Virus record (IMG/VR): IMGVR_UViG_3300013132_003882
Coordinates: 1 to 64,000 of that record
Length of the DNA: 64,000 bases
Direction: 5' to 3' (one strand)
DNA from: a virus
Both the position numbers and the translations under genes were made by a program. The number at the start of each line of letters is the position of its first letter. Position 1 is the first letter of the stretch. Below are positions 3,804-38,145 of the stretch, in pieces. The notes beneath the pieces were generated by a model that was given only the letters and a program-made list of their open reading frames with translations, did not search any database and was not told where the DNA came from.

Positions 3804-4520
3804 TTGTACAATCCAAAATTTAACTATCAGCCCATTGCCCGGCAAAATGTCAACGGCCGTAGACTGTATGCCACACCCGATGGTAACAAATTGCCCAGTG
3901 TAACCACAATACTGGATGCCACAAAAAGTGAAGAGAGCAAACGTGCCTTGCAGAACTGGCGCAACAGTATTGGGTCAGAAAAAGCACAAGCTATTACAAC
4001 AGAAGCAGCCAATCGTGGCACCCGCATGCACACTTATCTTGAACAGTATGTTCGAGATGGGGTGATCAAAGAGCGTGGCTCAAATCCGTTTTCATGGGCC
4101 AGCCATGCCATGGCACACACTGTGGTAGAACATGGCCTGAAGAACGTGAGTGAATTTTGGGGCATTGAAGTGCCGCTGTATTTTCCCAAGATCTACGCAG
4201 GCACCACAGATGGCGCGGGCATACATCAGAACGAAGAGGCCATCCTGGACTACAAACAAACCAACAAACCCAAACGACGAGAGTGGATTGATGATTACTT
4301 TGTGCAATTGTGTGCCTATGCAGAAGCCCACAACGAACTACACGGTACACGGATACGAAAAGGCGTGGTCTTGATGTGCGTCAAGCCCACTGTAGACGAA
4401 CAAATGAACATGGTCACACAGCCAGAATACCAAGAATTTGTGCTAGAAGGCAGCGAGTTTGATCGGTATCGGGACTTGTGGTGGAAAAAGGTCGAACAGT
4501 ATTACTTGCTAAATATGTGA
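3804..4520 (+). CDS. PD-(D/E)XK (RecB-like) exonuclease
   Basis: The 238-aa product shows a RecB-type nuclease core. An Asp in GTTDGAG is followed by ILDYKQ, the (D/E)XK strand, and then by the YFVQLCAYAEA helix typical of RecB motif Q/Y. It starts with TTG two bases after the iscA stop. Related single-domain nucleases in phages process DNA ends in recombination or packaging. The exact substrate is not deducible. Confidence 0.8.
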   Translation: MYNPKFNYQPIARQNVNGRRLYATPDGNKLPSVTTILDATKSEESKRALQNWRNSIGSEKAQAITTEAANRGTRMHTYLEQYVRDGVIKERGSNPFSWASHAMAHTVVEHGLKNVSEFWGIEVPLYFPKIYAGTTDGAGIHQNEEAILDYKQTNKPKRREWIDDYFVQLCAYAEAHNELHGTRIRKGVVLMCVKPTVDEQMNMVTQPEYQEFVLEGSEFDRYRDLWWKKVEQYYLLNM

Positions 4521-4539: not shown

Positions 4540-6291
4540 GTGGCAATTGTACAAATATCAAGAATCACCGCCCGCAAGGGTTTGACTGAAGACCTACCAC
4601 AGCCCTTGGCTGGCGCTGAGCTGGGCTGGGCAACTGACGAACGCAGACTTTTCATCGGCAATGGTGAACTTGCAGATGGCGCACCCATTGTGGGCAACAC
4701 TGAAGTATTGACTGAATTCTCAGACATTTTGAGTTTTGCCGGACAGTACATCTATCAAGGGCAAGCCGCTGGATACACTGTGCAGACCGGAGCCACCACC
4801 GGATCGCCAGTGTCGCAAAGTATTCAAAGTAGACTAGACAGCTATGCCATAGTCACAGATTTTGGTGCCACGGGCGACGGACAAACAGATGACACTGCTG
4901 CTATAAATCGAGCGTTGTTTCAACTGTATTGTGTACAAAACAATACTCAGGTTCGACGAAGCTTGTTTTTTCCTGCAGGACGTTACATTATAACTGACAC
5001 CATTTTGGTTCCTGCCTTTGCCAAACTGTATGGTGAAGGCGGCGCCAGTTCAATCATTGATTTCAATGTGCAGAATTGGGCGGCCAACACTGCTTATGTG
5101 GCAGGAGTGCTGGTGTACGATGTTGCAAATGCTGTGTATAGACGCAGCTTGGTACCAGTGCCGGCCACTGGTATTTTGACCACTGACCCAGTGTACTGGG
5201 CTACAGAATCATTGCCCAGTTATATGATGCGCACAGCTGACAGCTTGCAACAAACAGGGGTCAACATTGCTACCAATGGTGCCACACCACCAGAAAACAT
5301 ACAGGTCAGCGAAATGGGAATCACCAGCAATCAAGTGTTGAATGGTATCCTGATTGAAACTGCCAGCAATTGTGATTTTGACAGTGTCAACATAACAGGA
5401 CCATTGACCACCAATGAGCTCAATGCAGCTGGCGACGACACTGCTGCCATACGCTGGGCCAGCACAGTCAGTTTGACCTGCGAGCATGTGAATTGGAACA
5501 ATTGTGTGTTTTCTGGATTCACGTTTGGTACCAAAACAGATCAACAGATCAAGGGTGTGGTATTTGCCAACTGTGTGTTTGACACACTGTATCAAGGTGT
5601 GGTCTTGGGAGACACTGTAGTGGTATCAGGTGGTGCCACCGGAGTCAAGCTCATGCACTGCATATTTGACAACATCTACGTGGAAGGATTCATATGCAAC
5701 AATGTGAGCTTGAATGCATCTGCCTACAATATTTTTTATGATGTAGGCAACCATTTCAATGGAGCTTCACTGCCTGCCAGTCCGGTTATTTTGATCAATG
5801 CTGACAACAACGTCAGCATTGGCGACATGTTTCAACGAAACACCGCACAATCAATAGTATATCCCAGAATCAAACTGTTCAATTCTACCACCAGCACTGT
5901 GCCTGCCAGTATCGGCGTAGACAGTGCTGTGAGATCACAACTGGGCAGTTATGTTAGAAACACTGGTGTGCAAGCCACCTTGGCTCAAAGCGCCAGCAAT
6001 GCTACCTTGTTTACTATAAGTTCAACATACATCAAAGCCTTCAAAATGGATTACACAATCACTCGAGACACATCAGTGCGCACTGGTACATTGACTGTGG
6101 CCAATGATGCTGATGATTCAGCAGGAGATGGACTGAGTTACAGTGACGATTTTGTACAAAACTCAGATCCAGATGTAACATTGGCAGTGACAGATGTGGG
6201 TACTAACATGACTGTGACGTACTCAACCGACAGTGTACGTCCTGCTGGATTGATATACTATAGTGTGGTCTACCTTGGACTCAGCAGCTGA
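4540..6291 (+). CDS. Tailspike / pectate-lyase-fold protein
   Basis: The 583-aa product starts with GTG. The first 60 residues resemble an N-terminal attachment module (GWATDERRLFIGNG). Residues 106-125 contain the TDFGATGDGQTDDTAAIN signature that opens right-handed beta-helix domains of the pectate lyase 3 family. The remainder is beta-rich, ending in a small C-terminal domain. Such proteins bind and often cut host surface polysaccharide. A CTAAATATG element lies about 25 bases upstream. Confidence 0.85.
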   Translation: MAIVQISRITARKGLTEDLPQPLAGAELGWATDERRLFIGNGELADGAPIVGNTEVLTEFSDILSFAGQYIYQGQAAGYTVQTGATTGSPVSQSIQSRLDSYAIVTDFGATGDGQTDDTAAINRALFQLYCVQNNTQVRRSLFFPAGRYIITDTILVPAFAKLYGEGGASSIIDFNVQNWAANTAYVAGVLVYDVANAVYRRSLVPVPATGILTTDPVYWATESLPSYMMRTADSLQQTGVNIATNGATPPENIQVSEMGITSNQVLNGILIETASNCDFDSVNITGPLTTNELNAAGDDTAAIRWASTVSLTCEHVNWNNCVFSGFTFGTKTDQQIKGVVFANCVFDTLYQGVVLGDTVVVSGGATGVKLMHCIFDNIYVEGFICNNVSLNASAYNIFYDVGNHFNGASLPASPVILINADNNVSIGDMFQRNTAQSIVYPRIKLFNSTTSTVPASIGVDSAVRSQLGSYVRNTGVQATLAQSASNATLFTISSTYIKAFKMDYTITRDTSVRTGTLTVANDADDSAGDGLSYSDDFVQNSDPDVTLAVTDVGTNMTVTYSTDSVRPAGLIYYSVVYLGLSS

Positions 6292-28775: not shown

Positions 28776-29072
28776 TTAAATTTCAAGACTGCTGCTGGTT
28801 TTTTCTTCGCCCGCTCCCAACACACAGGCAATTTTACTATCATACTCAATCATGGTCCATGATCGTGTTTCCTTATTTGCCAACAACGTAATGTGTGTGT
28901 TGTGAACAGTTTTGCCCACCCAAACTGGAGATTCTTTGTGATTGTTTTTAAAATAATTCATCACATGCTGTGCATCTGAACACTTCATCTGTTTGGTTAA
29001 CTCCATAATTTCTTGGGCGTCGGCTATAGGGCTTAATAAGCAGAATAGGAACGCCATTGCTATCTTACGCAT
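28776..29072 (-). CDS. Exported small protein, 98 aa
   Basis: The first 20 residues are a signal peptide (MRKIAMAFLFCLLSPIADAQ). The mature part has two Cys and no heme motif. It is the last gene of the plcP-agt-cytochrome unit. TATAAATA (29088-29095, minus strand) lies 16 bases upstream. Its leader is closely similar in DNA to that of the neighbouring cytochrome gene. The function is unknown. Confidence 0.75.
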   Translation of the reverse strand: MRKIAMAFLFCLLSPIADAQEIMELTKQMKCSDAQHVMNYFKNNHKESPVWVGKTVHNTHITLLANKETRSWTMIEYDSKIACVLGAGEEKTSSSLEI

Positions 29073-29080
29073 AATGGCTC
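29012..29080 (-). repeat. Duplicated signal-peptide leader, copy A
   Basis: This stretch, covering the start region and signal peptide of the 98-aa gene, is strongly similar to 29375-29444. The 16-base run gcagaataggaacgcc is identical. The two downstream mature proteins are unrelated. Confidence 0.8.
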
Positions 29081-29087
29081 CTTAAAT

Positions 29088-29095
29088 TGATATTT
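29088..29095 (-). promoter_or_regulatory. T4-like late promoter candidate TATAAATA
   Basis: An exact match to the T4 late consensus 16 bases upstream of the 98-aa exported gene on the minus strand. Confidence 0.55.
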
Positions 29096-29099
29096 ATAA

Positions 29100-29435
29100 T
29101 TAGGGCGCAAATGTATCACTCATAATATATACAGTCACACCGACCCGTTGCCGTTCGTTAAAGATATCTCGCCAAGCCGGCATTTTGCGGAACCCATTGG
29201 TGACGCGGTCGTAGACAAAATCCGGTTTATAACTGGAAGATTTGAGTTTGGGTGCCTTGCCAGGATAAGCACTGTTGCCGTGACAGTGGCGACACTGACT
29301 ATCCCATACTTGTTGACCCAACGCAATCAAAGAACTATCCTTCATCACAGCATCTGTAAATGCTGGTGCCGAATCCTGGGCGTTGGCTATGGTGCTGATT
29401 AGGCAGAATAGGAACGCCACCGCTGACTTTTGCAT
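29100..29435 (-). CDS. c-type cytochrome, periplasmic
   Basis: The 111-aa product has a signal peptide (residues 1-20), a CRHCH heme-attachment motif at 48-52 and a likely distal Met at M85 in RKMPAW, the pattern of small class I cytochromes c. It would carry electrons in the host periplasm after heme attachment by host machinery. The start at 29435 follows CAGGAGAAG. It lies 22 bases after the glycosyltransferase and probably shares its transcript. Confidence 0.88.
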   Translation of the reverse strand: MQKSAVAFLFCLISTIANAQDSAPAFTDAVMKDSSLIALGQQVWDSQCRHCHGNSAYPGKAPKLKSSSYKPDFVYDRVTNGFRKMPAWRDIFNERQRVGVTVYIMSDTFAP

Positions 29436-29444
29436 AATGGCTTC
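29375..29444 (-). repeat. Duplicated signal-peptide leader, copy B
   Basis: Partner of 29012-29080. It spans the signal peptide and ribosome site of the cytochrome gene. Confidence 0.8.
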
Positions 29445-29457
29445 TCCTGTGCGATAT

Positions 29458-30459
29458 TTAGCGCACAGGTACCAAATTGTTTCTGAATATTTCCCAGGCT
29501 CGACCCCATGACCAACGCTGACTGCCTTGCAGCACAAGATGTCTGGGCAAAAACAAAGCATCAGTCACAGCCTGTTTTAGGTCTGTGTTCAAGCAGCCTG
29601 TGATGCCTTCATCAACTACATCCACGGGACCTTGCACAGGAAATGCTGCTACAGGTGTGCCACAGGCCATGGCCTCAATCATCACAATGCCAAAGGTCTC
29701 CCACTGACTGGGAAATACAAATACTTCAGCATTGGCATAGTATTCGGCCAATTCTTCTCCGGTCCGGTATCCAGTGAACAGTACGTCAGGATACTGTTGA
29801 CGATAAGTTGGCAACATTGGGCCATCACCTACCATGATTTTCAAAAAGCCCGGAGTTGACATTTCAAAGAATGCTTCCAGATTTTTTTCTTTGCTGACTC
29901 TACTCACACACAGCAAGTACCTGCGATTTTTACACTCTAGTCTATAGCCAGGGTGGAATATGTCTCGATCCACACCTCTAGTCCAGGAAATGATATCACC
30001 ATCAAATCCATGTGACCGGAGTTCTTGTACCATAGAATCTGTGGTGGTCAAGACCCGGCCTGAATGTTTGTGAAACCAACGCACTAGAGGCCAAGTAAGA
30101 CTCTCAGGTATACCAAACAGTTTTCTAAGTCCTTCTGGAAACTTAGTATGATAAGCAGTGTTGTAGCGATAATGGTGTTTGTCAAGATATTGTCTAACAC
30201 GCAAACCAATAGGACCCTCTGTGGCGATGTGGATATGATCCGGACGGATCTCCTCAAGTATCGCGCCCACCTTCCGGGGAAAGGCAATCTTGACTTCGTT
30301 GTAGCCAGGGCAATCAACATAGCGGAACCGCCGGGGATCAAGATATACAACACGATAGTTGTCCCGAATCGCCATCGCCTCAATATTTTTGTAAGTTGTG
30401 ACCACGCCATTGATCTGATCCGGTAAGTTGTCTGTGACTATTAAGATTGTTTTTGACAT
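29458..30459 (-). CDS. agt: GT4 glycosyltransferase, Agt-type (glycolipid synthesis)
   Basis: The 333-aa product is a GT-B glycosyltransferase. It has an N-terminal acceptor half with NLPDQINGVVTTYKN and AYHTKFPE, and a donor half with VSRVSKEKNLEAFF and PSQWETFGIVMIEAMACGTPV (the EX7E motif). It is directly downstream of the PlcP-type gene. In phosphorus-starved bacteria the plcP-agt pair replaces phospholipids with glycolipids made from diacylglycerol. The assignment to Agt rests on family resemblance plus this adjacency; other GT4 acceptors are possible. Confidence 0.8.
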   Translation of the reverse strand: MSKTILIVTDNLPDQINGVVTTYKNIEAMAIRDNYRVVYLDPRRFRYVDCPGYNEVKIAFPRKVGAILEEIRPDHIHIATEGPIGLRVRQYLDKHHYRYNTAYHTKFPEGLRKLFGIPESLTWPLVRWFHKHSGRVLTTTDSMVQELRSHGFDGDIISWTRGVDRDIFHPGYRLECKNRRYLLCVSRVSKEKNLEAFFEMSTPGFLKIMVGDGPMLPTYRQQYPDVLFTGYRTGEELAEYYANAEVFVFPSQWETFGIVMIEAMACGTPVAAFPVQGPVDVVDEGITGCLNTDLKQAVTDALFLPRHLVLQGSQRWSWGRAWEIFRNNLVPVR

Positions 30460-30492
30460 TGCCCCGTTACCTTGAAACTTTTAAACTTCAAA

Positions 30493-31365
30493 TCATATCG
30501 CATGGTCGCCAACACCTGTTCGCAACTGAGTTGATTTGGGAAAACTAATTCTATTCTTCCGGGTTGATCTTGCGGATTCGTTGTGTGTACTGCTATCAAT
30601 ATCATCAACCACATTGTCGTTCTCCCTGGTCCAGGTTACAATTTCCCAAGATCCGTTGTGATGTTCTACTAGTGCTGTGCATGACTCAACCCAGTCACCG
30701 TCATTCATGTACATTATGCCATCTATTTCTTTAATTTCTGCATGATGTATGTGTCCACAGATAACTCCATCAAAGCCACGTTTCCGGCAGTAGTCAACAA
30801 GATTACGTTCAAAGTGAAAAATAAAGTCTACTGCTTTTTTGACCCGGTGTTTAAGGAACAGGCTAAGGCTAAAGTACCCAAAACCAAAACGATGACGAAT
30901 CCAATTAATCCTAGTATTGAGTCCAAGAATGAAATCATATGCTTTGTCTCCCAACATTGCCAACCATGGCGCCAGTCTAGTGATGCCATCAAATAAATCG
31001 CCATGAACCACAAGATAATGCCGATTGTCAACACCAATGTGCTCAACTTGATTTACAACTTCGATTAAGCCTAAGCCAATGCCATATTGCATAAACGGTC
31101 TCAAAAACTCGTCGTGATTACCAGCCACATATACAACCCTAGTACCGCGTTTGCTATGACCCAACACACGACGAATGACGTTGGTGTGACTTTGTTTCCA
31201 TCGCCACTTGTTTTGTTTGATTTTCCAGGCATCAATTATGTCTCCTACCAAGTAAAGAGTTTCGCAGGTGTTGTGTTTGAGGAAGTTGTTGAGTTTGTCA
31301 GCCTGGCAGTCTTTAGTGCCAAGGTGTACATCGCTGATAAAAATTGAGCGATAGGTTTTTTGCAT
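30493..31365 (-). CDS. plcP: PlcP-type phospholipase C / metallophosphoesterase
   Basis: The 290-aa product carries metallophosphoesterase motifs DVHLG (12-16), GDIID (41-45), GNHDE (82-86), VHGD (120-123) and GHIHH (204-208), then MNDGDWVES. This order and spacing match the LpxH-like clade containing PlcP of Sinorhizobium, which cuts phospholipid headgroups to diacylglycerol under phosphate stress. A PHO-box pair precedes it and an Agt-type transferase follows. No ribosome site is visible, and the ATG is 4 bases past TAAATA, so the mRNA may be leaderless. LpxH-type UDP-diacylglucosamine hydrolase is the main alternative. Confidence 0.85.
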   Translation of the reverse strand: MQKTYRSIFISDVHLGTKDCQADKLNNFLKHNTCETLYLVGDIIDAWKIKQNKWRWKQSHTNVIRRVLGHSKRGTRVVYVAGNHDEFLRPFMQYGIGLGLIEVVNQVEHIGVDNRHYLVVHGDLFDGITRLAPWLAMLGDKAYDFILGLNTRINWIRHRFGFGYFSLSLFLKHRVKKAVDFIFHFERNLVDYCRKRGFDGVICGHIHHAEIKEIDGIMYMNDGDWVESCTALVEHHNGSWEIVTWTRENDNVVDDIDSSTHNESARSTRKNRISFPKSTQLRTGVGDHAI

Positions 31366-31386
31366 CTAGTATTTACAGCCAGATGT

Positions 31387-31404
31387 GTTACAATAGCATT
31401 ACAG
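31387..31404 (-). promoter_or_regulatory. PHO box upstream of plcP
   Basis: On the minus strand, CTGTAAT-GCTA-TTGTAAC forms two 7-base direct repeats with a 4-base AT-containing gap, the PhoB-binding architecture. The TAAATA -10-like element starts after an 11-nt gap. The left repeat overlaps the stop codon of the preceding gene. Confidence 0.8.
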
Positions 31405-31713
31405 TTTGTCTTGCCTAGATGCCTGTAGTTCTTGACGTAAAATTTTGTAATCTTCCAGCGTGGCAATTGATGGCACAGTAGACTTCATGTATGCAGGGGG
31501 CACAGATTGCCATTCTGATTCACTCACACCGGCCACAATCATGGCAGTGTATTCGTGTCCATCACTGGTATGCAGTTGCACTCGTTCAAATCCTTGTGGA
31601 GTCTTGGCTGCGTTCATACAGGCTTGTGCCAAGGCTCTGAGAGCTGGGGGGTCGGCTATGATGTGTAAATCTTGTCGGGGTTCACTGTGTGGGTATATGT
31701 GTAGTCTAGACAT
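31399..31713 (-). CDS. Hypothetical protein, 104 aa
   Basis: It follows the DnaE-like gene with a one-base overlap. The product is soluble, beginning MSRLHIYPHSEPRQDLHI. It could be a polymerase accessory protein by position. Its stop lies in the PHO box of plcP. Confidence 0.65.
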   Translation of the reverse strand: MSRLHIYPHSEPRQDLHIIADPPALRALAQACMNAAKTPQGFERVQLHTSDGHEYTAMIVAGVSESEWQSVPPAYMKSTVPSIATLEDYKILRQELQASRQDKL

Positions 31714-33389
31714 TATGTTATGTGCTCGATTTCTTTCAATTTCATGCGCTTGCTTTTGTACACTTTAACACATTCACTGCTGTTTGTATAGTCCAAACGG
31801 CCTTTGCCCCACAAGATTGGTTGATCAGCAAAGGACATGGCGTGTGGAACTATCACATCTAGATAACGGCCGTTGCCAGTGCCCAAGGTAGCAAAGGTTA
31901 TGTAGTCTTTGGCTCCGCTTTTGAACACACGGTAGTTGGCCACCAGTCCCAGAAATTCCACTTCGCCGGGTCGTCTTATTTCAGTGCAAGCAGGAATAAA
32001 ATTACTGCTACTCCAACGACCAGTTCGTGCCAATTCAGCACATTCGCCGCCTTGCATGGGCGCAGGCACAGCTCCGGCCAATTTGGCTTCTTGATAATAT
32101 ACCCAACTGCTGTAACTGCCTTCGCAGTGTTTCAAACAGGCTCGCCAGAACGCCTCAGGATTGTGTGCCTTTTGATAGGCCAAGGCCCAGATCAATCTTC
32201 CTAGATTGGTAGCATGTGCTCGACACAGTCCAAAATGACTGAGTTCGCGCAGTGACGCCAACACAGTATCACGCTTGGGGTGATCACCAATCAACTGCAT
32301 AAACTCATAGATCTTTTCTTCATTGCGTTTGGCAAACGCTCTGCGCCACATGTCAGCGGTGTACATGTCACAGTCCAAGATGTCGGCAATCATGGTGATG
32401 GCATCATCTTCAAACACCACTGTGTCTTGTTGTATAGTGTCGGCACTCCAGTCTTGAAATGCACTGGCTTTACGTCGACCCTGTGTGGCCACTGGACGGA
32501 TCAGTGCAGTGGCCAGGGTACAGTCGCTCCGGCTCTTGACTTTGAGAGCTCTAAACAGTCTTTTCATGGCTGGACTTTCGCCCTGAGTCACACCCAACAC
32601 ATCACCACGACCCAGCAGGTCACTGGTTTTTTCATCATGCTCGGGATAGTCTGTGAGTGGGCGTTGATCAATCTCCCACAGTTGACTCAGTCCACGATTG
32701 GCCAGGATATCTATTTTGAAGTGTTCAAGATCTTCAGTTTCGTATTTGTCCAACAGGATTTGATTGTTGCCATTGATCAGGCTTGGAGGCACAGCACGAT
32801 CAAAAATCAAAATGCCACCACAGTGTTTTGATATACAGCGTTTTTTGCCCATGAGCTTGGCTGTGACTCGTTTGGCCTCCTCTATTTCTTCTGGAGGCAA
32901 CACTTGGCTGAATTCAAATCCACGTTTGAGTGTGCCTTTGGCTCCCAGCCGTTTGGCTGCTTCACGTTTGGCTGACTTTTCTTTGTACATCACATAGTTG
33001 CTGACTCTGGCACTTTGCCCCGGCCAGCGACGAAATATGCGATTCATCACAGTGGCCTGTTGCCAGTGTGGGAAATCCAGATCAATATCAGGAAGGTCGT
33101 CACGTTTGGGATTCATAAAACGTGCTATGGGGATGTTTTCTGCCACAGGATCTAGATCACTGATGCCCATGAGCCAGCACACCAGACTTGAGCCTGCTGA
33201 TCCTCGGGTGATGTGTGGTATGTCTGTGGTGAGATCCAGTATTTCTCGCACACGCAAGAAGTGTCGAGAAAAGTTTTGATCTCTAATTAGTTCTAGTTCT
33301 TCTGCCAGTCTGTGTGCGTATTTGGGATCTTGTGGTAATTCTCTTCTAAATTGTTTTACTAGTTGTTCAAGTTCTTTATATCTATCCAT
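31713..33389 (-). CDS. Compact DnaE-like DNA polymerase III alpha fragment
   Basis: The 558-aa product matches the polymerase core of bacterial Pol III alpha but lacks the PHP exonuclease domain and is half the normal length. Visible core features are RGSAGSSLV (62-70), PDIDLDF (100-106) with the two catalytic Asp equivalents D101 and D103, and FKIDIL with the third Asp D227, followed by helix-hairpin-helix-like sequence (HFGLCRAHA). It is probably an active but streamlined polymerase. The start MDRYKEL is preferred; an upstream in-frame ATG at 33443 overlaps a divergent gene. CATAAATA lies about 30 bases upstream. Confidence 0.82.
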   Translation of the reverse strand: MDRYKELEQLVKQFRRELPQDPKYAHRLAEELELIRDQNFSRHFLRVREILDLTTDIPHITRGSAGSSLVCWLMGISDLDPVAENIPIARFMNPKRDDLPDIDLDFPHWQQATVMNRIFRRWPGQSARVSNYVMYKEKSAKREAAKRLGAKGTLKRGFEFSQVLPPEEIEEAKRVTAKLMGKKRCISKHCGGILIFDRAVPPSLINGNNQILLDKYETEDLEHFKIDILANRGLSQLWEIDQRPLTDYPEHDEKTSDLLGRGDVLGVTQGESPAMKRLFRALKVKSRSDCTLATALIRPVATQGRRKASAFQDWSADTIQQDTVVFEDDAITMIADILDCDMYTADMWRRAFAKRNEEKIYEFMQLIGDHPKRDTVLASLRELSHFGLCRAHATNLGRLIWALAYQKAHNPEAFWRACLKHCEGSYSSWVYYQEAKLAGAVPAPMQGGECAELARTGRWSSSNFIPACTEIRRPGEVEFLGLVANYRVFKSGAKDYITFATLGTGNGRYLDVIVPHAMSFADQPILWGKGRLDYTNSSECVKVYKSKRMKLKEIEHIT

Positions 33390-33472
33390 TAAATGCTGCC
33401 TTGGTTGTTTTAGGAAAATATTTATGGTGTGATATTTTATCATTCAAAGATTTTGGCACCGCTAAATATTCT

Positions 33473-34114
33473 GTGAAATCCACCATAGCCCTATTCATAC
33501 ATGATCCCAAGTGCTCTGTACAGAGTGGCAACGGAATTATGCAGGCCCTGGGCAACAACTACAATTTTAAACTATTCAGCAAAAACGAAGTGGAAGATGT
33601 GTTCCTTGATGGGGTAGACATGGTTGCAGTACCAGGCGGATTTGGTGATGCCGACAGTTATGATACTTTGTTTAAAAACAACTCAAAATCTGTGCGGCAA
33701 TTCGTGCGGCAAGGCGGAAGATACTTGGGCATCTGTATGGGCGCATACTGGGCAGGCAAGCATTATCTCAACATCCTGGATTCAGTGGATGCTGTGCAAT
33801 ATATTCGTCGTCCAGGCACAGACACACGTAGACCGCATGCCAAATACATGCCAGTGACCTGGCGCGGCCAACCTAACAACATGTACTGGTACGATGGATG
33901 TGCCTTGGTGGGTGATCGCACCCGATTTGAAACTGTGGCAACTTACAGCAATGGTGATGCCATGGCCATCATACAGAACAGAATTGGCCTGATAGGATGT
34001 CATCCTGAAGCTGAACAGTTTTGGTACGACGATTACTCATGGATGCGCCGGCACTGGTCTGGTGGGCATCATCGTTTACTTCAAGAGTTTGCGGACCAAC
34101 TCATGCAGTCGTAA
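33473..34114 (+). CDS. Class I glutamine amidotransferase-like (BPL_N type) protein
   Basis: The product has a DJ-1/GATase fold: IALFIHDP, VAVPGGFGDADSY and the nucleophile elbow GICMGAYWAG. It resembles the N-terminal domain of some biotin-protein ligases, for which no activity is assigned. The start is uncertain: GTG at 33473 (213 aa) fits domain limits and lies after CTAAATATTC, while TTG at 33401 would overlap the divergent polymerase gene. Confidence 0.75.
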   Translation: MKSTIALFIHDPKCSVQSGNGIMQALGNNYNFKLFSKNEVEDVFLDGVDMVAVPGGFGDADSYDTLFKNNSKSVRQFVRQGGRYLGICMGAYWAGKHYLNILDSVDAVQYIRRPGTDTRRPHAKYMPVTWRGQPNNMYWYDGCALVGDRTRFETVATYSNGDAMAIIQNRIGLIGCHPEAEQFWYDDYSWMRRHWSGGHHRLLQEFADQLMQS

Positions 34115-34136
34115 AAAAAGGCCCTGTTAGGCCTTT
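34113..34136 (-). terminator. Terminator of the porin gene
   Basis: On the minus strand AAAGGCC-TAACAG-GGCCTTTTTTT forms a stem with a U-run, 53 bases past the porin stop. Confidence 0.75.
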
Positions 34137-34153
34137 AGTGCTGGTTACAAGTT

Positions 34154-34185
34154 CCAGCGCCGCTCTATCTTTGCGGCTGGTTTTT
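34154..34185 (+). terminator. Terminator of the GATase-like gene
   Basis: CCAGCGCCGC pairs with GCGGCTGG (one bulge) and is followed by TTTTT, on the plus strand. The two terminators face each other between converging genes. Confidence 0.7.
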
Positions 34186-34188
34186 GTA

Positions 34189-35571
34189 TTAGAAGTTGAT
34201 TTGTGTGCGAATGCTAACAACATCTTCCCTGCTGGTGGTGCCCATGTCAGTGGTATCCAATGGAGCAATTGCTGAGCCAAACTTGGTATAGGCATAGTTG
34301 GCCATGATTCTGGCATTGTTGTTGAGAATCCAGTTCACACCATATGTCACTGTCTGAGCAGAATTGGCATTCTGTGTACGGTTGCCTGTCACAGCACCGT
34401 CAACACTGTTGCTGCCTGCTGCTGTGTATTCAGAAACACGAACTCCCACTTGCCATGCACCTGTGCCATTGCCTACAACACCGCCATAGTCTTTCATAAA
34501 CACTGATGATGGGGTGATACCGCCAAAGGTGCCACCTTTATAACTTTTAGCAAAGTCTTCACCTGTGATATTGTACATGACTTCCACATACTTGGCCTGC
34601 ACTCGTACGTCTTGTGTGGCCACACAAGCAGAGGTCACACAACTGGCAGCACCTGTGACATAGTTATAGGTGTTGGCTGATGCTGAGTATTTGCTGTCAA
34701 AGTTTTCTGCTTGAATTTTGAATGGACCATGAGCCAAGGCCAATTCAATACCGTTCATGGTACGATTCACACTGGCAGCATTGTTGGCAGTGGCTCCATA
34801 GGCTGCTGTGTCAACTTTGTCACCGCCGATTTGAGCACGATACACATTGCTCATGCCACGTGCTTCTGAGCGTAGTGCTACAATTGTACCACGTGTGGTT
34901 GTGCTGGGCGCATCAACTGTGTTGCCCGAAGTTGTTGGCACCATCTGTGCCCGTCCACCAGTCTGTGCCACACCTACATGTAATACAGTGTTGGGATTGG
35001 ATGCCAGTTGACCAAAATTCACAGCCACACGTGCCGCATACTGTGCGCCCAGAGTGTTGTCACTGGAACTTTCTGCGAAGTCACCTTGAAATGCTGATAA
35101 TCCATAAACAAATCCTGCACTGGGTTCACCGTGCAGCATCACACCCAGACGTTTGCCTGGAACCAATTGATTGCCATATGAACGTTCCATGAAGCCGATG
35201 TTGTTTGAACTGGTGAGTTCTTCCAGGCTAAACGGCTGCTTGAATCGACCTGTACGGAATTGTGCTGATTGATTGAAGCCATAGTTCACAAAGGCAGTGT
35301 CAATGAAGTTGGTGTTGCTGCCTACAGCATTGCCCACCAACTCATAGTTGATCTGCTTGTTGATACTGCCATTGATACCAATTCTGGCTCTACGCAGTTC
35401 AAAGTTGTCGCCCACGCTGGCGCTGTCACGGTCTGTGGATTTGGTCAGGTCCGAATCAAATGTTCGTGTGTCAAAATGCACACGGCCTGTGACCTTGGAA
35501 TCCACCTGTGCCATTGCTGGCGCTGTCAGGGCCACAAATGCAGCGGCCAAGATTAATTTAGTAAATTTCAT
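34189..35571 (-). CDS. Phosphate-selective porin (OprO/OprP family)-like
   Basis: The 460-aa product has a 21-residue signal peptide ending AMA, a long stretch of alternating beta strands and a C-terminal Phe (RTQINF) typical of outer-membrane insertion. The start of the mature part (DNFELRRARIGINGSINKQI, then FRTGRFKQPFSLEELTS) matches the OprO/P family, trimeric channels for phosphate or polyphosphate. It follows pstS, which supports phosphate as substrate. A receptor-replacement or superinfection role is an alternative. A ribosome site AAAGGAG is clear. Confidence 0.82.
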   Translation of the reverse strand: MKFTKLILAAAFVALTAPAMAQVDSKVTGRVHFDTRTFDSDLTKSTDRDSASVGDNFELRRARIGINGSINKQINYELVGNAVGSNTNFIDTAFVNYGFNQSAQFRTGRFKQPFSLEELTSSNNIGFMERSYGNQLVPGKRLGVMLHGEPSAGFVYGLSAFQGDFAESSSDNTLGAQYAARVAVNFGQLASNPNTVLHVGVAQTGGRAQMVPTTSGNTVDAPSTTTRGTIVALRSEARGMSNVYRAQIGGDKVDTAAYGATANNAASVNRTMNGIELALAHGPFKIQAENFDSKYSASANTYNYVTGAASCVTSACVATQDVRVQAKYVEVMYNITGEDFAKSYKGGTFGGITPSSVFMKDYGGVVGNGTGAWQVGVRVSEYTAAGSNSVDGAVTGNRTQNANSAQTVTYGVNWILNNNARIMANYAYTKFGSAIAPLDTTDMGTTSREDVVSIRTQINF

Positions 35572-35596
35572 ATTTCTCCTTTAGATTTACTTTTGC

Positions 35597-35624
35597 GATA
35601 TAACATAATATGTAGTGCAGTCAA
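35597..35624 (-). promoter_or_regulatory. Promoter of the porin gene
   Basis: On the minus strand TTGACT and TATATC are 16 bases apart, about 25 bases before the start codon. No PHO repeats were seen here, so read-through from pstS would be needed for phosphate control. Confidence 0.55.
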
Positions 35625-35635
35625 CACCACAGTGA

Positions 35636-36655
35636 TTATTTCTTGATCTGGGACCAAACACGGTCACGAATCTGTTGAGTCAAGGTGTCTGGCAGTGGTA
35701 CGTAATCCAAATCCAATGCTGCCTTTCGTCCATTTTTAAATGCCCAATCAAAGAATTTCAATACCTCTGCACTTTGGCGAAGGTCGGTGGGATCCTTGTA
35801 CATGAGAATAAAACTGGCAGTGGTCACTGGCCATACACTGTCGCCTTTTTGATCCACAATGCTCAGGGCCATGCCTGGTACTGAGAACCAATCTGCCCCA
35901 GCAGCCGCGGCAGCAAAGGTGGTGTCATCTGGTGATACCCAGCGACCATTGCGGTTCTGCATCTGCATGAACACCAATCGGTTTTTCTTTACATAGGCAT
36001 ATTCAACATAGCCAATGCTACCTCGGATTCGTGCCACGTTGGCTGCTACACCTTCATTGCCTTTACCGCCCACAGATGTTGCGGCAGGCCACTTCACAGC
36101 AGCACCACGACCCACACGTTCCAACCAAGCAGGACTCACTGTGCTGAGATAATCGGTCCAGTTGAAGGTGGTGCCGGAACCATCAGCACGATGTACCACA
36201 GTGATGACTTGATCGGGCAAGGCTTTGCCGGGATTGAGAGCCATAAGCCGAGCATCGTTCCATTTGGAGATTTCGCCTAGAAAAATCTCTGCCAGCACTG
36301 GTCCAGTGACTCGGAGTTCACCTGGTCGGAATCCTGGTAAATTCACAGTAGGTACAGTACCGCCTATGACGGCAGGAAATTGCACCAGGCCTTCTTTTTC
36401 CAATTCTGCACCTGACATGGGTGCATCACTGGCGCCAAATGTCACTGTCTTGGCCTTGATCTGTCGCAGGCCACCTGAACTGCCAATGCTTTGATAGTTT
36501 AACTGAGTGTCGTGTTTTTCACTGTAGATTTCGGCCCACTTGCTGTAAATGGGAAAGGGGAAAGTTGCGCCTGCCCCAGTGATGATGTTTTGAGCATTTG
36601 CTGATGGACTCAACAAATACAGTGTTGCGGCCAACAAGGCCAAGATTTTTTTCAT
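35636..36655 (-). CDS. pstS: Periplasmic phosphate-binding protein PstS
   Basis: PstS binds phosphate for the PstABC importer. The 339-aa product has a signal peptide (1-21) and all main ligand segments: GAGATFPFPIY, SIGSSGG, FGASDAP, HRADGSGTTFNW and GNEGVAA. The start at 36655 follows AAAGGAAAAC. No pstABC is nearby, so it would serve the host transporter, as known for cyanophage PstS. A PHO box lies 55-72 bases upstream. Confidence 0.95.
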   Translation of the reverse strand: MKKILALLAATLYLLSPSANAQNIITGAGATFPFPIYSKWAEIYSEKHDTQLNYQSIGSSGGLRQIKAKTVTFGASDAPMSGAELEKEGLVQFPAVIGGTVPTVNLPGFRPGELRVTGPVLAEIFLGEISKWNDARLMALNPGKALPDQVITVVHRADGSGTTFNWTDYLSTVSPAWLERVGRGAAVKWPAATSVGGKGNEGVAANVARIRGSIGYVEYAYVKKNRLVFMQMQNRNGRWVSPDDTTFAAAAAGADWFSVPGMALSIVDQKGDSVWPVTTASFILMYKDPTDLRQSAEVLKFFDWAFKNGRKAALDLDYVPLPDTLTQQIRDRVWSQIKK

Positions 36656-36673
36656 GTGTTTTCCTTTGTGAAT

Positions 36674-36689
36674 ATGTGCGATTGCACAT
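36674..36689 (-). other. Hairpin in pstS leader
   Basis: ATGTGC-AATC-GCACAT forms a perfect 6-bp stem between the promoter and ribosome site. Confidence 0.55.
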
Positions 36690-36709
36690 GAATATTTAAA
36701 CACAAAGAT

Positions 36710-36727
36710 GTTACAGTAATGTTACAG
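36710..36727 (-). promoter_or_regulatory. PHO box upstream of pstS
   Basis: On the minus strand CTGTAAC-ATTA-CTGTAAC gives two identical 7-base repeats spaced by 4 bases. TAAATA starts after an 11-nt gap, exactly as at plcP. The distal repeat overlaps the stop codon of the upstream 50-aa gene. Confidence 0.85.
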
Positions 36728-36874
36728 TGGCTGGGTTTTTTTGTTCTTTTTGTCTGGACCAAGAGCTTTGGCTTCTTCCAGCCGGCGCTGTGTGGCAGGG
36801 GTTGTTTGGGGAGGACGATACACGTGGTGTTTCTGGGATTCGTGTCGTCGCGGTGCTCGTTTAAACCAACTCAT
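36722..36874 (-). CDS. Small basic protein, 50 aa
   Basis: This is a minus-strand gene starting MSWFKRAPRRHESQ with AAAGGAACTGTCT before the ATG. It is highly basic with a Lys-rich C-terminus, so nucleic-acid binding is possible. Its stop lies in the pstS PHO box. Confidence 0.6.
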   Translation of the reverse strand: MSWFKRAPRRHESQKHHVYRPPQTTPATQRRLEEAKALGPDKKNKKTQPL

Positions 36875-36933
36875 AGACAGTTCCTTTGCAGGTCTAAATA
36901 CTTATTGTGTGTGTTTGAAATATAAACTCCAGT

Positions 36934-38145
36934 TTAATTTTGTTGTAGCAGTTGGCCAATTACAACACGATGTTGACCTGTGCAATGCTGTTGCATAATG
37001 ACCATGGCTTGATCTAAATTGGTCTGGTATTCTTCTATCACTTGATCAAACAGTCCGTTGAAAAATCGTTGTTTGTTGCGTTGGGCAATCTCATGCAATT
37101 TTGTGTACAGTGCTTGTTTAGCCGCAGCATCAAGTGCAGCAATTCTTTTCATCTCTTGGATGATGGCATCTAATCTGGCTGCACCATCAGCAATGGTGTC
37201 ATAAGTTTCGTCAATCACATTTGCAAACGTTTCAAAACCGTAGTTTCTCAGGTATTGCAAACTGCCTGGTGTAGCCGCCAACAAGAAAGGTTTGCCACAA
37301 GCAATGGGCCTCAGTGTTTTTTCTGTGAGATGCCAACGATCATCATCAAACAATGTTTCCAGCACAATTTCAATGCCACAAGCAGCGTAGTCTGCGCCAC
37401 AGTAATCTGCACTGCTGCCTGAATCAGCAGTGTTGGGCGGATAAAGTTGTTCCAAATTGTGTAGATGAATTTGGAATTTTTTGTTGGCAAACACATGATC
37501 TACATAATGTGTGTCATTATCCACAGCGGCAAATGCAGTTTGAGTGTGTGATGTAAGATCATGCGTTGCCAGTTGTTGGGCAAAATACAGTCGATATTCT
37601 CGTGTGCCGCTCCAGGCTCGGTTGTATACCAAAAATGTTTTTTGTATTCGGGCAACATTATAAGTCAATGCAGGATCATGTTTGGCATATCGAAACCAAT
37701 CCAACGCAATCATGGCATGACTCCAGATGTATACAGGTACAAAATTTGCTTTTACAAAATATTTTAATTGACGACTGTGCAGTTCAGAGTGTACCAACAC
37801 TGTTAGATCAAACTGATTGCTGCATACCTGTGGTGGTCGTAGATGCATGCCAGCCACATAATTCAAAACAGAATGCTCAAGCATAAAAAAACTGTCTGAT
37901 ATTTTGGAAAAAAATGACTTTGCATTATTGTATAGTTGCTCTTTGGTGTAAAATAAAAAATCCAATGGTTCTTGGTCATGAAAAACAACCAATGGATTCT
38001 TTTCAAGTTGATATTCTGGGTAGTTGGTCAACTGTGTTAGGTCTTCCAGTTTTCTTGAGCCATGTGGCAACCAACGATAAATTACTAGATCATGGTTGAC
38101 ACAGTCACACAAATAGTGATATAATCTGTCTAAAGGAACACTCAT
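36934..38145 (-). CDS. Glycosyltransferase-like phage protein, 403 aa
   Basis: The C-terminal third has WHLTEKTLRPIACGKPFLLAATPG, the donor-site pattern of GT10-like fucosyltransferase relatives. The N-terminal half (VFHDQEPLDF, VYNRAWSGTREY) resembles hypothetical proteins of large phages. The chosen ATG abuts the ATG of the divergent dehydrogenase with no gap and lacks a ribosome site. A longer start at 38217 would overlap that gene. Confidence 0.65.
   Translation of the reverse strand: MSVPLDRLYHYLCDCVNHDLVIYRWLPHGSRKLEDLTQLTNYPEYQLEKNPLVVFHDQEPLDFLFYTKEQLYNNAKSFFSKISDSFFMLEHSVLNYVAGMHLRPPQVCSNQFDLTVLVHSELHSRQLKYFVKANFVPVYIWSHAMIALDWFRYAKHDPALTYNVARIQKTFLVYNRAWSGTREYRLYFAQQLATHDLTSHTQTAFAAVDNDTHYVDHVFANKKFQIHLHNLEQLYPPNTADSGSSADYCGADYAACGIEIVLETLFDDDRWHLTEKTLRPIACGKPFLLAATPGSLQYLRNYGFETFANVIDETYDTIADGAARLDAIIQEMKRIAALDAAAKQALYTKLHEIAQRNKQRFFNGLFDQVIEEYQTNLDQAMVIMQQHCTGQHRVVIGQLLQQN

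Follow-up and report, generated by a model that had tools for sequence, protein, structure and literature searches.

The DNA analysed here, referred to below as the window, covers the first 64 kb of a 103,583-base virus record, the whole contig having been scanned for PHO boxes. It comes from a giant, T4-like phage that carries two phosphate-salvage operons, pstS-porin and plcP-glycosyltransferase. The features discussed are:

4510-4515, plus strand: ordinary TAAATA promoter without a PHO box, preceding a tail-spike-like ORF (4540-6291)
29458-30459, minus strand: GT4 glycosyltransferase (Agt-like), 333 aa, directly downstream of plcP
30493-31365, minus strand: plcP-like metallophosphoesterase, 290 aa, LpxH-like
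31370-31375, minus strand: TAAATA late-promoter element of plcP, 11 nt past the box and 4 nt ahead of the ATG
31387-31404, minus strand: PHO box of the plcP operon, repeats CTGTAAT and TTGTAAC separated by GCTA, CTGTAATGCTATTGTAAC
31399-31713, minus strand: 104-aa ORF with its TAA inside the plcP box, seen in near relatives only
34189-35571, minus strand: OprO/OprP-type phosphate-selective porin (PF07396, 133 bits, cut-off 20.9)
35636-36655, minus strand: pstS, coding for a 339-aa periplasmic phosphate-binding protein (408 bits with the NCBIfam PstS equivalog, cut-off 339)
36693-36698, minus strand: TAAATA late-promoter element of pstS, 11 nt past the box
36710-36727, minus strand: PHO box of the pstS operon, repeats CTGTAAC and CTGTAAC separated by ATTA, CTGTAACATTACTGTAAC
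36722-36874, minus strand: 50-aa ORF with its TAA inside the pstS box, conserved in relatives

The porin gene follows pstS after 64 nt on the same strand, so that the two are likely to be co-transcribed; this gene order was found at one other locus only (L087). A 558-aa fragment resembling the alpha subunit of DNA polymerase III (DnaE) lies between the two operons (31713-33389). A search of Rfam with positions 29000-37200 gave nothing.

The plcP product scores 43 bits against the NCBIfam LpxH model (cut-off 134) and is approximately 50% identical to bacterial homologues; relatives are encoded in 341 viral stretches. A glycosyltransferase gene follows plcP in 38 of the 70 phage loci with room for one, and in 24 of 30 bacterial loci (Comamonadaceae). 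PlcP-Agt lipid renovation operons under Pho regulation are known in P. aeruginosa, SAR11 and Phaeobacter (PMC8528852, PMC4796936). The pair in the window resembles these in that an LpxH-like metallophosphoesterase is followed by a GT4 glycosyltransferase behind a PHO box, but it is located on a phage and its enzyme activities are predicted. The 200 bp upstream of the Comamonadaceae plcP-glycosyltransferase pair (L472-L501) contain no PHO box, so the phages may have brought under Pho control a pair that is constitutive in the host. The ATG of plcP lies 4 nt after TAAATA (31363-31375), and 4-5 nt after it in many relatives, suggesting that the plcP mRNA is leaderless or nearly so. Some phage plcP genes lack a PHO box (L029, L033, L045, L058, L071 and L083-L086); these have a common CGTAACCAGA directly before the ATG, sometimes with GTGACTCTGGAAC upstream. 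In the cultured pelagiphage Mosig (Pelagibacter phage, L168) pstS and plcP lie next to each other in divergent orientation, and TAAATA is found directly before the plcP ATG; no TGTMA box was recognisable at this plcP.

Both boxes in the window fit a 7-4-7 direct repeat of CTGTMAY, and lie before plcP and pstS, as described in the first-pass annotation; both are on the minus strand. The pattern YTGTHAYN4YTGTHAY has just two matches in the 103,583-base contig, i.e. these two boxes, where 0.22 would be expected from a first-order Markov model (Markov-1). The matched spacing that had been reported is also exact; TAAATA begins 11 nt after the box at plcP and pstS alike, and neither box has the 10-nt register of sigma70 promoters. 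The expected number of composites (box, 11 nt, TAAATA) in the contig is 4e-5 (Markov-1) and two were found, in agreement with the earlier argument that two matched copies are unlikely to arise by chance. Each box also overlaps the stop codon of the preceding gene. This is true at both loci, but at plcP the overlap is incidental, because the box is kept in the relatives G001 and G004 even though no match to the 104-aa ORF ahead of it was obtained there.

The first-pass annotation proposed that a scan revealing many sites of equal score away from phosphate genes would refute the case, and the outcome depends on the matrix, such sites being seen in part with a host-type matrix. Using a host-type matrix, made from 46 bacterial pstS boxes, the window sites rank 5th and 34th of 207,132 positions, the plcP box being weakly scored, and four sites in coding regions elsewhere in the contig outscore them. 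The low ranks result from a difference in the repeat, which is TGTAA in the phage boxes and TGTCA (CTGTCAC type) in bacterial pstS boxes. With a phage matrix, from 148 composite sites of other phages, the pstS box ranks first and the plcP box second (24.8 and 22.1 bits; the next site 17.3), and no rival site appears once the fixed geometry is included. Since the ranks depend on the matrix, the case rests on conservation and geometry and not on sequence score alone. The four higher-scoring coding-region sites are what might be said for a chance resemblance; its probability is nevertheless negligible, as it is refuted by conservation, the composites being found twice in the contig despite the tiny expectation and recurring in dozens of distinct phage sites.

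The main point, missed in the earlier annotation, is the nature of TAAATA, which is a late promoter of the phage itself. With genes called by a simple in-house script, no published gene finder being used, no hexamer is more enriched ahead of the genes of this phage than TAAATA (18 genes, 1.85 expected, p = 1.7e-12), and it is also the top upstream hexamer in the relatives G001, G004 and G023 (p to 7e-32). The sigma70 hexamer TATAAT is separately enriched in the window's phage, where it is second, and in G001 and G004. Homologues of T4 core genes common to G001 and G023 are gp4, gp13, gp17, gp18, gp23, gp41, gp44, uvsX and uvsW; G023 has in addition gp10, gp15, gp20, gp21, gp43, gp46, gp47 and gp55. 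TAAATA is located 12-31 nt ahead of the homologues of gp10, gp13, gp17 and gp20 in G023 and of gp13 and gp18 in G001, and is absent within 60 nt of the homologues of gp41, gp44, gp46, gp47, gp55, uvsX and uvsW that were tested. Ordinary TAAATA promoters (137 in four genomes) have no upstream element, a half-site in register being present in 1 of the 137. TAAATA is thus taken to be a late promoter because it is enriched upstream of genes, precedes structural genes and lacks an upstream element, like that of T4.

The T4 late promoter, TATAAATA, functions with gp55, gp33 and gp45, occupies positions -13 to -6 and has no -35 element (PMC2988020). The full octamer is not found at the window sites, which are TTTAAATA (pstS) and TGTAAATA (plcP), each agreeing at seven of eight positions. 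The similarity lies in a TAAATA core at the -10 position and its location before structural genes, in T4-like phages some of which encode a gp55-type sigma. By contrast, T4 late promoters are without an upstream element and their sliding-clamp activator is not site-specific, whereas the window sites have the box of a site-specific host activator upstream. Since TAAATA is a late promoter that belongs to the phage, these sites look like composites of a host activator site and a phage sigma element, and not like borrowed host promoters.

The bacterial proteins nearest to the phage PstS are from Comamonadaceae (up to 76% identical), and this similarity, the single indicator used, suggests a host in that family. 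In the 50 Comamonadaceae pstS upstream regions that have a box, the arrangement is the box, 10 nt and then TANAGT; box-N11-TAAATA occurs in none of the 50. Like these proteobacterial Pho promoters, the phage sites have a 7-4-7 direct repeat before pstS, but TANAGT at gap 10 in the bacteria contrasts with TAAATA at gap 11 in the phage. The -10 element of sigma70 promoters occupies positions -12 to -7, so by textbook registers the PHO box would end at about -23 in both the bacterial and the phage designs. It appears that the phages have replaced PHO box-N10-TANAGT, a sigma70 promoter, by PHO box-N11-TAAATA.

The same arrangement recurs in other phages. Upstream regions were fetched by the PstS or PlcP protein alone, and box-N11-TAAATA was present in 31 of 45 distinct regions for pstS and 30 of 59 for plcP. 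The hexamer at gap 11 is exactly TAAATA in 59 cases, and otherwise usually differs at two or more bases. The distance from box to TAAATA is 11 in 55 cases, 21 in six and 22 in one. In eight further pstS regions, a tandem class, a sigma70-type box-N10-TAnnAT is closely followed by TAAATA, which lies approximately 10 bp further downstream than in the fused class.

A pattern scan of IMG/VR found box-N11-TAAATA in at least 119 stretches, compared with 31 for N12 and 26 for N10. Among the matches listed, 85 of 113 distinct N11 sites lie before relatives of pstS or plcP, compared with 0 of 26 for N12 and 2 of 21 for N10, and several of the other N11 sites are at contig ends or ahead of PstS-like fragments; these loci include related phages, which do not represent independent events. 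Six of the listed N11 composites precede a multi-helix membrane protein of about 319 aa with VPVST and IPMSTT repeats (L289, L293, L298, L349 and L369 among them). By eye it is like a PiT transporter; it had no family match in Pfam, NCBIfam or the PDB, and its AlphaFold model (pLDDT 38) was too poor for a fold search. Four others precede an Ala/Val-rich 215-aa protein family (L278, L284, L303 and L336; the translation was read in L278 and L284 only), with a near-identical spacer in L284, L303 and L336.

The sites might instead be ordinary PhoB/sigma70 promoters in which the TAAATA region serves as a weak -10 element (TTAAAT at gap 10), the late sigma being unneeded or using the same spot separately at a later stage. 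In favour of this, poor core elements are tolerated at PhoB promoters, PhoB depends on region 4 of sigma70, and related phages do employ PHO box-N10-TAnnAT sigma70 promoters beside a late promoter, as seen in the eight tandem pstS regions. However, at gap 10 the fused sites carry T at the position of the A2 of the host -10 element that is conserved in 49 of 50 bacterial loci, and their hexamer is not a degenerate TANNNT but the invariant TAAATA of the phage's own promoter. Moreover, those phages that want sigma70 carry a separate TAnnAT. We consider this explanation rather unlikely.

A related possibility is that two elements overlap but act independently, PhoB with sigma70 early and gp55 polymerase without PhoB late, the spacing being set by the need of sigma70 alone. 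The tandem class is just such a two-promoter design, but in the fused class TAAATA is nearly always at gap 11 rather than the sigma70 gap of 10, and independent elements would be expected to drift in spacing. Independent action is thus improbable, and the composite of PHO box and late promoter is preferred.

The boxes are conserved before genes of the phosphate regulon (pstS and plcP) in many phages. A search for the OmpR/PhoB-family DNA-binding domain (PF00486) found none in 33 phage records of up to 365 kb, while the control matched in 10 of 14 genomes. The boxes are therefore most likely read by host PhoB. The repeats could be bound by a regulator encoded by the phage, or by another host protein, and this might be indicated by their preference for TGTAA, the bacterial pstS boxes that were examined having TGTCA. 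Yet the targets are phosphate genes, the layout and position equal those of bacterial pstS boxes and no gene for a regulator of the family was found in these records, so that binding by a protein other than PhoB is very improbable. The earlier suggestion that the phage reads the phosphate state of its host is well supported by comparison, through the recurrence of the boxes before phage pstS and plcP, their likeness to bacterial pstS boxes and the result of this search.

The proposal requires a late sigma factor. Two PHROG profiles detected a gp55-type sigma in 7 of 50 records, and a profile built from these phages did so in 11 of the 40 related records tested. Profile searches did not find gp55 in the 103.6-kb contig or in the near relatives G001, G003 and G004. 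The G001 contig begins at gp23, and in G023 gp20, gp46, gp47 and gp55 adjoin gp23; the lack of gp55 in G001 is thus likely to be due to truncation. The sliding clamp gp45, sought by PF02916, was found in 1 of 27 records. The late sigma factors of these phages are about 300 aa in length, compared with 185 in T4, and an AlphaFold model of one (pLDDT 50) was too poor for a fold search. In the late sigmas of L422-L433 a stretch is inserted relative to T4 gp55, and the proteins have ends such as VYEE or IFEE; the clamp-binding end of T4 gp55 is SLDFLYEAND.

We note that the contact between PhoB and the late polymerase is the weak point, because T4 gp55 lacks an equivalent of region 4 (PMC2988020) and PhoB activates through contact with region 4 of sigma70 (PMC4496699). 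One could speculate that gp33, or the stretch inserted in the longer sigmas, might supply the contact.

Control of phage phosphate genes by the host PhoB/PhoR system is already known. In the marine cyanophages P-SSM2 and S-PM2d pstS is under host PhoB/PhoR, and gel shift shows binding of PhoB, with some S-PM2d promoters (PMC10976474). The present phage is similar in this respect, but host and box type differ. The cyanophage sites precede a DUF680-pstS operon and are followed, by eye, by a sigma70-like -10 element (TATATT, TATAAT) instead of a fused late promoter; the cyanophage pstS promoters were accordingly rejected as a precedent for the fusion. A fusion of a PHO box, or of any host activator site, with a T4-type late promoter was not encountered in the literature covered, most subscription journals being outside its scope.

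We propose that the composite promoter is an AND gate, in which host PhoB and the phage late sigma together drive pstS-porin and plcP-glycosyltransferase, and assign this a probability of about 0.6. The host PhoB site would stand in for the -35 element that is missing from the T4-type late promoter, the box keeping the register used by PhoB at host promoters (i.e. ending at about -23). Firing would require both the presence of a gp55-type late sigma and phosphorylation of host PhoB when phosphate is short. Late in the infection of a phosphate-starved cell the products of pstS-porin would raise phosphate uptake, while PlcP and the glycosyltransferase would convert phospholipids into glycolipids, freeing phosphate for phage DNA. 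Four parts of this scheme are predictions: the binding of PhoB, its productive contact with late RNA polymerase, the timing, and the activities of the enzymes. Whether PhoB directly activates the late-sigma RNA polymerase, in place of a -35 element or the sliding clamp, so that a host nutrient signal gates late transcription promoter by promoter, is in our view evenly balanced.

T4-type late promoters have been described without an upstream element and with an activator that is not site-specific, and these phages appear to add one that is controlled by the host. The range of phage auxiliary metabolic genes for phosphate would also be extended to lipid remodelling (plcP with a glycosyltransferase). 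If the proposal is correct, it raises the question of how PhoB works without sigma70 region 4. Dozens of related phages have the same switch, which suggests that the nutrient state of the host gates late phage genes; many freshwater phages would then have kept a compact AND gate that combines the late stage with starvation of the host.
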